NCBI GenBank assembly: GCA_903933715.1
Contig: CAIZLD010000061.1
Location: 1-59,362, forward strand
DNA from: an uncultured Spartobacteria bacterium
Lineage (GTDB): Bacteria; Verrucomicrobiota; Verrucomicrobiia; Chthoniobacterales; Chthoniobacteraceae
Direction of reading: 5' to 3'
Length of the DNA: 59,362 nt
Position numbers and translations under genes: made by a program. Below are positions 1 through 59,131 of this stretch, piece after piece (the stretch's first letter is position 1; the number at the start of each line of letters is the position of its first letter). The notes below the pieces were generated by a model. That model did not search any database. It was not told the origin of the DNA and was given only the letters and a program-made list of their open reading frames with translations.

Positions 1-185
1 ACCACCGGATGAGGCATTGGAAGAATTCACCCCAAAGGGGTGGCAGAAAACGAGGCAATGCTCTCTGCCACCCCTTTGGGGTGAATTCTTTCAAACACCT
101 CATCCGGTGGTGTCGCTAACGCTCAACCACCGGCTATTCGCTGGCAACCCTTCGGGGTGCGGCGGCTTTTGAATGTCGATTCAGC
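1..185. repeat. Palindromic intergenic repeat, family 1, copy A (cut by window edge)
   Basis: Nested inverted repeats. Positions 23-47 and 64-88 are perfect 25-base reverse complements around a 16-base loop. Outside them, 1-14 pairs with 98-111 (the accaccggatgagg arm). The distal part carries the core tgtcgctaacgctcaaccac (111-130). The last 15 bases (171-185, gaatgtcgattcagc) abut the stop codon of the leftward nfeD-like gene. The same architecture and the same 15-mer recur at 43241-43493. No transposase is adjacent. The left end lies outside the window. Confidence 0.85.
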
Positions 186-1562
186 CTACCCCCCCGGCCC
201 CACCACGATCCGAGCCCCTTCGACCGCCACCACGCGCACGGGCGTGCCGGGGTCCACAAATTGTCCCTCGGTAATCACGTCGTAGAGTTCGCCGCCAAAC
301 TCCGCCTTGCCGCTCGGCCGCAGGATGGAACGGGCCACCCCTTGCGCTCCGACTGACAACCGGGTGTATTCGCTCTTGGTTGGTGAAAGCGCCGCCCCCG
401 CCGGATTGCGCGACGACAGGACCAGCGCATGGAAAAAGGAATTCCGGGGCAGATGCCTGGCCAGGAAATAAATTGCAACGGCGGCCAAAAACCCCGCCGA
501 GGCCAATTTCAACAGCGGGACGAGCAGCAGTTCGGAATCCGGGATCAACGGCGTGCCCGGATAACGATCCACCATCGCCCACACAATCGAACCCGCGACC
601 AAGAGCGCCCCGATCAGACCGGGCAAGATCGTGCCGGGGTGAATAAACAGTTCGCTCAAGACCAGCGCCAGACCAATCATGAAAAGCACCGGCGCTTCCC
701 AACCGGCCAGCCCCGCCACGTAATGACCCGTGAAAAAGATGCCAAAGCAGATCGCCGACAGAATGCCGGCAACTCCAAATCCCGGGATTTTCATTTCAAG
801 GTATGCCCCTAAAATCCCGCCCAGCAAAAATAACGGCGCGAGCCTCGTCACCCAAAACGCCAACACTTCAAATCCGGTCGCATGGACCTCGCGAACCAGC
901 CCTTCGAGTTTGGCCTTTTTGATCAGATCGTCCATGGAGGTCGCGATCCCCGCCGCGAGCAACGGCTTGCCGTCGATCAATTTTGTGGCTTCCTGCGCGC
1001 TTAAGGTGAGGACAGACCCTTTTTCATGAATCGTCTTTCCGCCCAGCACGACCGGCTTTTCCTTGTTGATAAACGCCTCCGCAATCTGCGGATCGTGCCC
1101 ATTCTCCTGGGCGACGCTGGCGAAGTAGCTCGAAAGAAACGAGACCTGCTTATCTTTGAGCGTCTGCGCCAAATCCTCGCCGCCCGCCATCACGGGGGCC
1201 GCCGCACCGATCGCGCTGATCGGCGCCATGTAAATCTCCTTGGTCGAAAGCGCAATCAATGCCCCGGCCGACCCGGCATTCGGGTTGATATACGTGAGCG
1301 TGCGGGTTTTAACGCGGGCAAGCGCCTTCTGCATCTGCACGCAGGCGTCCAGCTCGCCGCCGTAGGTGTCCATATCAAGGATCACGGCTTTGGCCTGCTC
1401 CCGTTCGGCCTCTTTGAGAGCCCGCCGCAGAAAAAAGAATTGCGCCTGCGAAACCTGTCCTTTCAAGGGGATTACGATCAGTTCCGAACCCCGGGCCTCC
1501 CCCGGCCCGAATGATCCAAAAATCAAGAGGCCAACCATCATCGCTCGAAGCAAAGCCTTCAT
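186..1562 (-). CDS. NfeD-family membrane-bound serine protease
   Basis: A 458-residue protein with three parts: an N-terminal signal sequence (starting MKALLRAMMVG), a ClpP-class protease domain (roughly residues 30-225), and about five membrane segments (roughly 235-385) followed by a small C-terminal OB-fold NfeD domain. The motif NAGSAGALIAL carries the expected nucleophilic Ser, and a Lys would complete the Ser-Lys dyad. Long NfeD proteins of this class cleave membrane stomatin partners and take part in membrane quality control. No stomatin/SPFH gene is adjacent. The start at 1562 is chosen because it opens directly on the signal peptide; an in-frame ATG at 1595 would add 11 polar residues. 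Family assignment is firm, the substrate unknown. Confidence 0.88.
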   Translation of the reverse strand: MKALLRAMMVGLLIFGSFGPGEARGSELIVIPLKGQVSQAQFFFLRRALKEAEREQAKAVILDMDTYGGELDACVQMQKALARVKTRTLTYINPNAGSAGALIALSTKEIYMAPISAIGAAAPVMAGGEDLAQTLKDKQVSFLSSYFASVAQENGHDPQIAEAFINKEKPVVLGGKTIHEKGSVLTLSAQEATKLIDGKPLLAAGIATSMDDLIKKAKLEGLVREVHATGFEVLAFWVTRLAPLFLLGGILGAYLEMKIPGFGVAGILSAICFGIFFTGHYVAGLAGWEAPVLFMIGLALVLSELFIHPGTILPGLIGALLVAGSIVWAMVDRYPGTPLIPDSELLLVPLLKLASAGFLAAVAIYFLARHLPRNSFFHALVLSSRNPAGAALSPTKSEYTRLSVGAQGVARSILRPSGKAEFGGELYDVITEGQFVDPGTPVRVVAVEGARIVVGPGG

Positions 1563-1711
1563 ATCATCTGAATTTCGGCGTTTTTGCCCAATCACACAAG
1601 CCGATTCGCCATTCGCAGCCCGCGATCGGCGAACAAAATATCAAATAACCCGCATTCTCTTTGAATCTGATCTTGAACTCTTCGGTAAATAGGGGAAAAT
1701 CTTACTCCTCT

Positions 1712-34008: not shown

Positions 34009-34036
34009 GTTCCTGTTTAGCGCGCTAAACAGGAAC
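34009..34036. repeat. Perfect 28-base palindrome
   Basis: gttcctgtttagcg followed directly by its reverse complement cgctaaacaggaac, ten bases after the acetyltransferase stop. No T-run follows. Confidence 0.9.
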
Positions 34037-34054
34037 GAATCCAAAAGGATTCAA

Positions 34055-34215
34055 AGCCAACAGCCGGTGGTTGAGCGTCAGCGACACCACCGGATATCCA
34101 AGCAAAGACGCCTCACCCCAACGGGGTGATCCGTATTATGCCAATAAGAGTCCGGTGGTGTCGGCGCGTGATCGCGCCTCAACCACTGGCTATCGGCTTG
34201 AAACCCTCCGGGTTT
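34055..34215. repeat. Palindromic intergenic repeat, family 1, copy B
   Basis: Two inverted core units, cagccggtggttgagcgtca at 34061-34080 and tccggtggtg...accactggct at 34151-34190, around a small palindrome tcaccccaacggggtga (34113-34129). The cores match those in copies A and C, but the shared 15-base end is absent. Confidence 0.75.
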
Positions 34216-42743: not shown

Positions 42744-43223
42744 ATGGAACGTCTGCTCGAACTTCTCAAATCCAATGGCCGCGCCTCCAACGAGGATTTG
42801 GCCAAAGCCCTCAATCTGACGGCGGCCGAAGTCGCGGCGCGCATCAGCGCCCTTGAGCGTGACGGCACCATCGTCGGCTACCAGACCCTGTTCGATCCAG
42901 ACAAGACCGGCAATGGCTGTGTGGAAGCGGTGATCGAAGTAAAGATCACGCCCGAACGCGGCGGCGGCTTCAACCGGCTCGCCAGCCGGATTTCGAAATT
43001 CGAGGAAGTTCAAAGCTGTTACCTGATGAGCGGCGGCTACGATTTGCTGGTCATCGTCCAAGGCAAAAATTTGCAGTCGATCGCCCAGTTCATAGCCCAA
43101 CGTTTGAGCACCATCAAAGGGGTCATCTCCACCGCGACCCATTTCCGGCTCAAAGCTTACAAAGACAACGGCGTGCTGCTCCACCGGGAGAGCAAGCCCG
43201 AACGGCTCGCCGTCTCTCCCTAG
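42744..43223 (+). CDS. Lrp/AsnC-family transcriptional regulator
   Basis: 159 residues. An N-terminal winged helix-turn-helix (NGRASNEDLAKALNLTAAEV), then an RAM/ACT-like domain (VEAVIEVKITPERGGGFNRL and VQSCYLMSGGYDLLVIVQG) that binds an amino acid or related metabolite and multimerises. Targets unknown; cysK lies on the other side of a repeat, convergent. A short hairpin and T-run overlap its stop. Confidence 0.92.
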   Translation: MERLLELLKSNGRASNEDLAKALNLTAAEVAARISALERDGTIVGYQTLFDPDKTGNGCVEAVIEVKITPERGGGFNRLASRISKFEEVQSCYLMSGGYDLLVIVQGKNLQSIAQFIAQRLSTIKGVISTATHFRLKAYKDNGVLLHRESKPERLAVSP

Positions 43224-43259
43224 CGAGAGAACTCTTTTTCGCGGCTTTTCAAAAGCCGC
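43213..43259 (+). terminator. Terminator at the end of the Lrp-type gene
   Basis: tctctc (43213-43218) and gagaga (43225-43230) flank the stop codon, followed by actcttttt. A second hairpin (gcggctttt / aaaagccgc, 43241-43259) follows. Confidence 0.6.
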
Positions 43260-43493
43260 CGCAACCCGGAGGGTTGCCAGCGAATAGCCGGTGGTTGAGC
43301 GTTAGCGACACCACCGGATGAGGCATTGGGAGAATTCACCCCAAAGGGGTGGCAGAAAACGAGGCAATACTCTCTGCCACCCCTTTGGGGTGAGGCGCGG
43401 TTTTTGCATTGAACCGGTGGTATCGCTTCGCTCAACCACCGGCTATGGGCTTCAAACCCTTTGGGTTTGGCTCGATCCGAATGTCGATTCAGC
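43241..43493. repeat. Palindromic intergenic repeat, family 1, copy C
   Basis: Contains agccggtggttgagcgttag (43287-43306), caccccaaaggggtggcaga (43337-43356) with its inverted partner after a 16-base loop, and a second core ending caaccaccggcta (43433-43445). The 15 bases 43479-43493 (gaatgtcgattcagc) are identical to 171-185 and abut the cysK stop codon. Copy A is arranged in the same orientation relative to its leftward gene. Confidence 0.9.
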
Positions 43494-44468
43494 TTAGGCC
43501 GGGATCAAGTCGTCGATATTATCACTTTCAGCCACGATATCGGCGAAGAGCCACGAGGAGAGATAGCGTTCCGTTGAGGACGGAACAATCGCTACGATCT
43601 GTTTGCCCGCGTTTTCAGGACGCTTGGCGAGCTGGAGCGCGGCCCAGATCGCGGCTCCGCTCGAAATCCCCACCGGGATGCCGTCGAGTTGATTAACCTC
43701 CTTCGAGATCGGGCCGGAATCTTCTTCCAGCACCGGGACGATCTCGTCGATGATCTTGGTATTAAGCACCGCCGGGACGAATCCCGCCCCGATTCCCTGG
43801 AGCTTGTGGGGCGCGGGCTGTCCGCCGGAAAGAACCGGCGAGCGCGAAGGCTCCACGGCGATCGCTTTGAAACCCGGCTTGCGCGGCTTGATCACCTCGG
43901 CAATGCCGGTGATGGTGCCCCCGGTGCCGATGCCAGCCACGACAAAATCAACTTTGCCGTCGGTGTCGCGCCAGATTTCCTCGGCGGTGGTGCGGCGGTG
44001 GATCTCCGGGTTGGCCGGATTGGCAAACTGCTGAAGAATGATGCTGTTGGGGATCTTTTCGTGAAGCTCCTCCGCCTTGGCAATCGCCCCCTTCATCCCT
44101 TTTGGCCCTTCGGTAAGCACCAACCGCGCCCCCAGGATTTTGAGCAATTTGCGCCGTTCCGTGGACATCGTCTCGGGCATCGTGAGAATCAGCTTGAGCC
44201 CGCGCGCCGCCGCGATGAACGCGAGTGCTATCCCCGTGTTGCCGCTGGTCGGTTCAATTAAGACCGTATCGGGCTTGATCAGTCCTTTTGCCACGGCGTC
44301 GTCGATCATGGCGACCCCGATCCGGTCTTTGACGCTCGAAAGCGGGTTGAAAAATTCGAGCTTAAGCAACACGTCGGCTACGGCTCCGTGTTTTTTGGCA
44401 GTGCGGTTGAGGCGGACCAAGGGGGTATTCCCAATGGTTTCACTGATGTCGTTGAAAATGCGAGGCAT
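43494..44468 (-). CDS. cysK: Cysteine synthase A (O-acetylserine sulfhydrylase)
   Basis: 324 residues, fold-type II PLP enzyme. The PLP Lys is K47 in [11 protein letters not shown], the phosphate loop is [12 protein letters not shown], and the cofactor-end block is [10 protein letters not shown]. It makes cysteine from O-acetylserine and sulfide. Start at 44468 (MPRIFND) fits the usual N terminus and a strong promoter about 40 bases upstream. A family 1 repeat begins directly at its stop codon. Confidence 0.96.
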
Positions 44469-44506
44469 AGTTTTTAGTTGTTTTGAAATGTGGTCGAACG
44501 ACACCC

Positions 44507-44534
44507 AAAATACCCCATAACTACATGTTGTCAA
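44507..44534 (-). promoter_or_regulatory. Promoter of cysK
   Basis: On the minus strand a consensus ttgaca (44534-44529), a 16-base spacer containing acatgt and tattttg-like -10 (tatttt, 44512-44507). Predicted start near 44500, giving a leader of about 32 bases. Confidence 0.6.
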
Positions 44535-46837: not shown

Positions 46838-47230
46838 GGATCTTAATGAGGATTGCGGGGCAGTCAAAACGGAGATCGCCCCGGAATCAAGCCCTGAGGC
46901 CATGAATAACCCGTGAAAAAAGTCGGGAACGCAGGGCTTCAGCCAGCGTTTTTCTTTTTACAAGAGAAGCCCGGCTGAAGCCGGCTGGGGCATCGGGGTG
47001 AATCCCAACCACCGGCTGAAGCCGGTGGCAAAGCGGATTTGCCGGCTAAAGACCGGCATGAGAAAACTTTTTCATAGGCTTTGAGCCAAACGCCCATGCA
47101 CCCCCGGAAAAAACTGTCCCAGTAGCCAACGGGCAGACCGCCGATGACAAACGCTCATGCACCCCCGGAAAAAACAAACTTCAATTTTCGTTAGCCAAGC
47201 GGCTGCCGGTTCCCTATGTTAATAAATCCT
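46838..47230. other. Repeat-rich intergenic region before the GreA-type gene
   Basis: 393 bases without a gene. It contains multiple GCCGGY-type palindromes, such as ccaccggc-tgaa-gccggtgg (47009-47028), and a 27-base direct repeat pair (below). Promoter elements for the downstream gene were not identified with confidence. Confidence 0.7.
47088..47175. repeat. 27-base direct repeat pair
   Basis: aaacgcccatgcacccccgg (then aaaaaac) at 47088-47114 and aaacgctcatgcacccccgg (then aaaaaac) at 47149-47175, one mismatch, spaced 34 bases. Located 55 bases before the GreA-type gene start. Confidence 0.85.
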
Positions 47231-58932: not shown

Positions 58933-59131
58933 GTTCACGAATCACGGCAGCATCCGTATTTTTTAATCTCACGCAAAGACGCAAAGACGCAAAGGAAAGG
59001 CAAAGACAACAAGGCACACCTCTTCTTTGCGCCTTTGCGTCTTTGCGAGAAATAAATTCTCTTCCTTGCGGCCTTCGCGTGCCATTCTTTGAACTTAATT
59101 CGTGAACATGCCCTAGGTAGTGTTCACGAAT
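58933..59131. repeat. Inverted repeat element with ttcacgaat ends
   Basis: Ends tgttcacgaat (58933-58943) and attcgtgaaca (59098-59108) are inverted, with a further direct copy tgttcacgaat at 59121-59131. Inside, cgcaaagacgcaaagacgca (58972-58991) faces ctttgcgtctttgcg near 59033-59047. Elements of the cgcaaagacgc type are widely seen as intergenic palindromes. Confidence 0.75.

Follow-up and report, generated by a model that had tools for sequence, protein, structure and literature searches.

A 15-bp repeat abutting stop codons in a Spartobacteria genome is probably the end of an IS5-type miniature transposon

We suggest that the 15-mer GAATGTCGATTCAGC, which abuts the stop codons of two genes in the window (the whole 59,362-nucleotide stretch of DNA analysed here, contig C61 of its genome from base 1), is the end of a non-autonomous miniature transposon of IS5 type (presumably IS427-like) that inserts at YTAR (C/T-T-A-A/G), and that its contact with stop codons comes about through this target motif together with purifying selection. 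We put the probability of this reading at roughly 0.85. It builds on direct observations, namely the copies of the element, their ends, the target motif, the element-free gene ends of relatives and the presence of the same ends on IS5-type elements elsewhere. An IS5-type DDE transposase would recognise the terminal repeat and insert the element at YTAR, mostly at CTAG, CTAA or TTAG; at a stop codon the TAG or TAA would stay on the gene side and leave the gene unharmed, while insertions near gene starts would be lost, so that the remaining copies would be biased towards gene 3' ends. That the 15-mer meets stop codons is no artefact: the coincidence recurs and is informative, though its cause is an ordinary one.

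The repeat and the element that it bounds

The sequence-only reading had placed an identical 15-mer against two stop codons, and the match is indeed exact at 171-185, beside the TAG of an NfeD-like gene, and at 43479-43493, beside the TAA of cysK, these being the two exact matches in the window (Table 1). The source genome (G000; 2.80 Mb in 77 contigs) holds 91 exact 15-mers, 50 forward and 41 reverse, against 0 for a control pattern read backwards. For the 19-mer made of the 15-mer plus YTAR, 143 matches with up to 3 mismatches were counted in the same genome, the control again giving 0. Inverted pairs account for 24 copies, of which 22 measure 254-262 bp and two are shorter (191 and 98 bp); another 43 ends are unpaired, and for 19 of these a contig end lies less than 300 bp away on the inner side. 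When aligned, the two-ended copies resolve into one element of ~258 bp with two distinguishable ends, almost wholly palindromic and bounded by the 15-mer as its terminal inverted repeat; the consensus folds on itself nearly from end to end (-194 kcal/mol). The aligned copies and inverted pairs bear out the earlier proposal that the 15-mer is the fixed boundary of a mobile palindrome.

The first copy in the window is incomplete because the window begins at the first base of its contig. The second has lost its left terminal repeat, the place of which is occupied by a terminator-like stem on the stop codon of an Lrp/AsnC gene (42744-43223). Conservation beyond the 15-mer is only partial because the two ends of the element differ, and positions 171 and 43479 show opposite types. 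The inner arms of the aligned two-ended copies are mosaic: measured against the ends, the central stretch points one way in some copies and the other way in others, as though recombination between the arms had flipped it. A second repeat, CTAG followed by TGGGCTGTCACACGTTAAGC, adjoins the element directly or nearly so (for example at C13:7892 and C12:17356). The exact 16-mer TGGGCTGTCACACGTT occurs five times in the window and the stretches around copies, every time after CTAG or TTAG. An Rfam scan of the window gave no match, and no tRNA association was seen within it.

Table 1. Features of the window that bear on the element and its neighbouring genes
Positions	Strand	Feature	Basis or remark
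1-185	+	Incomplete palindromic element copy, cut by contig end	Direct repeat of 43310-43393, 98%; fold -113.7 kcal/mol
104-133	.	Hairpin core CCGGTGGT...ACCACCGG	Sequence, motif positions
171-185	+	15-mer terminal inverted repeat	Sequence, genome-wide copies
186-188	-	TAG stop of NfeD gene (CTA on forward strand), abuts element	Outer flank CTAC, imperfect YTAR
186-1595	-	NfeD-like gene	NfeD1b_N, NfeD_membrane, NfeD domains
34036-34214	.	Related hairpin unit, uncapped core without 15-bp terminal repeats	Inverted-repeat matches, sequence
43213-43230	+	Terminator-like stem with T-run on Lrp/AsnC stop codon	Terminator scan
43220-43223	.	CTAG left of second element copy	Includes TAG stop of Lrp/AsnC gene
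43251-43493	+	Second element copy; left terminal repeat lost, right intact	43224-43493 folds to -161.2 kcal/mol
43288-43317	.	First hairpin core, second copy	Sequence, motif positions
43414-43442	.	Second hairpin core, second copy	Sequence, motif positions
43479-43493	+	15-mer terminal inverted repeat	Sequence, genome-wide copies
43494-43497	.	TTAG flank = YTAR target	Its TTA (43494-43496) = TAA stop of cysK
43494-44534	-	cysK, PALP family / cysteine-synthase type, full length	

Target motif and contact with stop codons

Immediately outside the 15-mer, the tetranucleotide is CTAA at 28 ends, CTAG at 23, TTAG at 18 and TTAA at 3, so that YTAR flanks 72 of the 91; the remaining 19, among them the NfeD end, have another flank. 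According to the available part of one report, IS5 duplicates PyTAPu, in most cases CTAG (PMC5493358). In our set of 32 pairs, 8 of them with imperfect 15-mers, identical 4-mers stood on both sides in 9, against a shuffle mean of 5.8 (P 0.09); a 4-bp target duplication is thus a candidate, and one of TA alone would also fit these flanks. Because YTAR includes TAG and TAA, a stop codon survives the insertion and the gene stays intact.

Genes were called with our own codon-usage caller (49 in the window), and the control consisted of all unoccupied YTAR sites, non-coding or at a stop, in the window and the stretches around copies (678 sides). A called stop codon is contacted by 20 of the 91 ends (22 with looser cut-offs), compared with 55 of the 678 control sides (P 0.0002), and a gene start within 50 bp is found for none of the 91 ends, compared with 80 of the 678 (P 3e-5). 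Ends inside called genes numbered 0 at the two stricter cut-offs and 1 at the loosest. The element, therefore, favours gene 3' ends or survives there. At distances of up to 25 bp from a gene stop, however, exact contact is no more frequent for the element (20/34) than for the control (55/90; Fisher P 0.84), and the same holds within 200 bp (20/54 vs 55/179, P 0.41), while among stop-facing ends at any distance the enrichment persists (20/61 vs 55/301, P 0.015). From this comparison we infer that stop contact is the product of the target motif and purifying selection, with no targeting of stop codons as such: contact is exact because the stop codon itself provides the target. The genome-wide tabulation of 15-mers against stops that had been proposed from the sequence did reveal a stop preference, yet one that the motif and the bias towards gene 3' ends explain, and the idea of placement targeted at gene ends gives way to a target that is YTAR. 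Literature searches on element insertion at stop codons found no paper, and those linking the IS5 family, YTAR and stop codons returned nothing apparently relevant.

The same counts bear on a role in terminating transcription from both directions or in stabilising 3' ends, for which positive selection would have kept the element at gene ends. The fold is highly stable and the excess at gene ends is moderate; of the two-ended copies, 24 in all, 11 have converging genes on either side, 5 are bordered by one gene end and one gene start, 1 by two gene starts, and 7 have a single side assigned. Against such a role, exact stop contact does not exceed what YTAR placement near gene ends gives, orthologous genes do without the element, and the terminator scan on the cysK side yielded one weak site within the element besides the stem on the Lrp stop codon, which probably belongs to the Lrp/AsnC gene and not to the element. 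We regard selection for this function as quite unlikely.

The C-termini of the 22 touched genes were compared, on the gene side, with four congeners (G001-G004), taking as orthologues proteins of at least 50% identity. Orthologues were found for 18 of the 22, giving 61 comparisons, and in 42 of these the proteins were of equal length; 13 of the 18 genes had at least one equal-length orthologue and 5 had none of exactly equal length. The 15-mer was absent within 60 bases past the stops of the equal-length orthologues in all four congeners, which thus carry element-free versions of these gene ends. RpoD is of equal length in all four, with a CTAG end in each, and the orthologues of a protein that we take from its C-terminus to be adenosylhomocysteinase end at the same residue in all four; for CysK this is so in three of four (G001, G002 and G004), again with no element there. 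These data speak against the earlier suggestion that the element replaced native 3' ends, and also against the possibility that it truncates genes, its own ends creating the stop codons. A TAG or TAA can form in frame beside the element end, NfeD is shorter than its four orthologues by 1-4 residues, and for a further four genes every orthologue differs in length; but the native stop position is kept in the majority of comparisons and ends practically never fall inside called genes, and we consider truncation as a general cause very improbable indeed. For NfeD by itself it is possible, and on sequence comparison a small alteration of that gene end may have occurred.

Few relatives carry the repeat at all. 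The 15-mer is present in 3 of 28, namely G000 itself and two genomes with a single copy each, and the 19-mer in 1 of 387 genomes of the phylum, which is G000. The single 15-mer of G002 abuts an in-frame TAG; that of G012 has an outward flank other than YTAR and may be a chance match.

IS5-type ends and a Y1-related core

Beyond the phylum, a scan of a contig collection with the 19-mer including YTAR returned at least 96 stretches, against ~7 expected by chance from simple base counting; among the matches listed, most were from Alphaproteobacteria, with others from Burkholderiales and some from Verrucomicrobia. Ten of the 80 loci examined from these matches are insertion sequences of 839-866 bp with the same ends and two-frame ORFs, and every one of the 10 has CTAG on either side. 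A Pfam scan of one of them (L158) matched its two frames to DUF4096 (IS4/5 transposase) and DDE_Tnp_1, and we take the group to be IS427-like. The element shares with these IS5-type insertion sequences of Alphaproteobacteria and Burkholderiales the core of the terminal repeat and the CTAG flanks; they encode a transposase in two frames, and it encodes none. In its short length, multiple copies and terminal inverted repeats (24 pairs, 91 ends) it also resembles MITEs derived from insertion sequences. An autonomous partner was not found in G000: the search for DUF4096 gave one match, without the repeat, and none of the transposase genes seen in the assembly has these ends. This is weak evidence because the assembly is in 77 contigs, and the partner may have been lost or collapsed in assembly.

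The interior of the element has other affinities. Hairpin cores number 151 in G000, and 36 of 38 sampled have a 15-mer end (up to 3 mismatches) no more than 230 bp away, and therefore the amplified unit is the form with 15-bp ends. The genome also contains three Y1_Tnp genes, each within flanking inverted repeats of 87-98 bp in TIRtron-like fashion (L073, 1516-1611/2089-2184; L032, 1393-1479/1943-2028; L033, 1329-1424/1873-1968). The inner part of the element (positions 28-232) is 77-83% identical, over 97-100 bp, to both inverted flanks of the Y1_Tnp gene on contig C67, and these flanks are long inverted repeats around a Y1 gene, as in TIRYT systems. Similar units occur without the 15-mer in G001 and G002 as well. 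A search of the 61 orthologue loci for core-like units found them in 7, an uncontrolled count from which we conclude nothing about conserved hairpins at these gene ends. The core looks older than its 15-bp ends.

Could the whole element, then, be a palindrome of REP/TIRYT type that depends for its movement on the Y1 tyrosine transposases encoded in this genome, with the 15-mer as a component of that system? The three flanked genes and the C67 match speak for it, and Y1 genes flanked by terminal inverted repeats ('TIRtrons') and repeat families derived from them are described in the accessible text of one paper (PMC3733652). Yet the C67 repeats have neither the 15-mer nor its YTAR flank, it is the 15-mer that marks out the unit that was amplified, and the same ends occur on DDE-type insertion sequences in other bacteria, which makes this an unlikely account. 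The suggestion of a REP type made in the sequence-only reading therefore holds for the core, which is REP-like in its match to the C67 flank, and fails for the ends, which are IS5-type with a YTAR flank; the GTAG tag was not found at the hairpin base, where by our own reading of the sequence the consensus is AATAGCCGGTGGT.

Returning to the IS5-type reading, the core probably derives from Y1 tyrosine-transposase (REP/TIRYT) repeats that were later enclosed by IS5-type ends, to judge from these alignments. A bolder version, which we advance tentatively and which may well prove wrong, is that of a hybrid: a Y1 (HUH) hairpin dimer set in IS5-type DDE ends and amplified into most of the cores, on which two unrelated types of transposase could act, the YTAR specificity turning TAG and TAA stops into reusable landing sites. 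The idea of reuse has its basis in a different element found at the NfeD and C18 stops in the sister species G002. Such a hybrid would be a variation on kinds already known, since TIRYT-type repeats and QMITE2 have been described, as far as the available parts of these reports go (PMC3733652, PMC5896051, PMC10969869). In our view the more interesting parts would be this hybrid make-up of the core and the way in which different elements use the same stop codons again.

The uncapped hairpin unit in the window (Table 1) is adjoined at ~34010-34037 by a 28-base palindrome, GTTCCTGTTTAGCGCGCTAAACAGGAAC, and outer sequence resembling that of this unit lies beside a core at C1:56577 (L287).

Known systems and a rule for stop contact

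With its ends in common with IS5-type elements (10 full-length) and its YTAR/CTAG target, the element has close counterparts among the IS5-family MITEs. One of these, MITEPsy1 of Pseudomonas syringae, is likewise small and non-coding with IS5-type inverted repeats; its insertion sites are CTAG or YTAA, with a repeat of 4 nt, and a related insertion sequence is believed to mobilise it in trans, according to the portion of the report available (PMC3189936). By the same source MITEPsy1 is 100 nt long with 18-nt repeats and has few copies, whereas the element described here is a near-perfect palindrome of ~258 bp with 91 exact ends and no partner insertion sequence seen in the assembly. In its core hairpins it resembles the long inverted repeats around a Y1 gene known from REP/RAYT and TIRYT systems, as these are presented in the accessible passages (PMC3733652, PMC2817692). 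The former passages also state that GTAG REP termini often supply a TAG stop to neighbouring ORFs (PMC3733652); unlike these, our element lacks GTAG at the hairpin base and has IS5-type ends and a YTAR flank. In Coxiella burnetii, QMITE2 is a MITE with a REP inside, found chiefly in gene 3' regions and with some copies on stops; in contrast to the element here, its direct repeats are of 7-11 nt and variable sequence, and the available parts of the two papers mention no IS5-type ends (PMC5896051, PMC10969869).

These results suggest a simple and testable rule, namely that a target motif containing TAR, acting together with selection that removes insertions elsewhere, brings small mobile elements into exact contact with stop codons. 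Such a rule makes a mechanism that seeks out stop codons unnecessary, and the same outcome is expected for any element targeting CTAG or YTAR. Two further data sets agree with it. The first comes from the same-ended elements in other organisms, where the longest ORF (at least 150 codons, with ORF length alone as the criterion) ends at the element's TAR in 20 of 77 usable ends, compared with 2 for each of the two remaining inward frames. The second is provided by an unrelated repeat, CTAG followed by TGTCCTGTCAG, that is frequent in G002 (36 matches over both strands) and has 0 matches in G000. It measures ~166 bp including the outer CTAGs (for example at L304, L307 and L320), and 10 of its 29 distinct ends are on a called stop codon; two of its copies abut the stop codons of the NfeD and C18 orthologues, the very positions taken by the element in G000. 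IS5-type ends around a Y1-associated core may offer REP-like repeats a possible route to a second means of spread.

Two other repeats in the window were noted. An imperfect inverted repeat at 58963-59056, with 38-base arms of 84% identity, is rich in CGCAAAGACGCAAAGG, and words similar to CGCAAAGACGCAAAGG come after some congener gene ends. At 47087-47175 there is a pair of 28-base direct repeats, 96% identical, with starts 61 bases apart.
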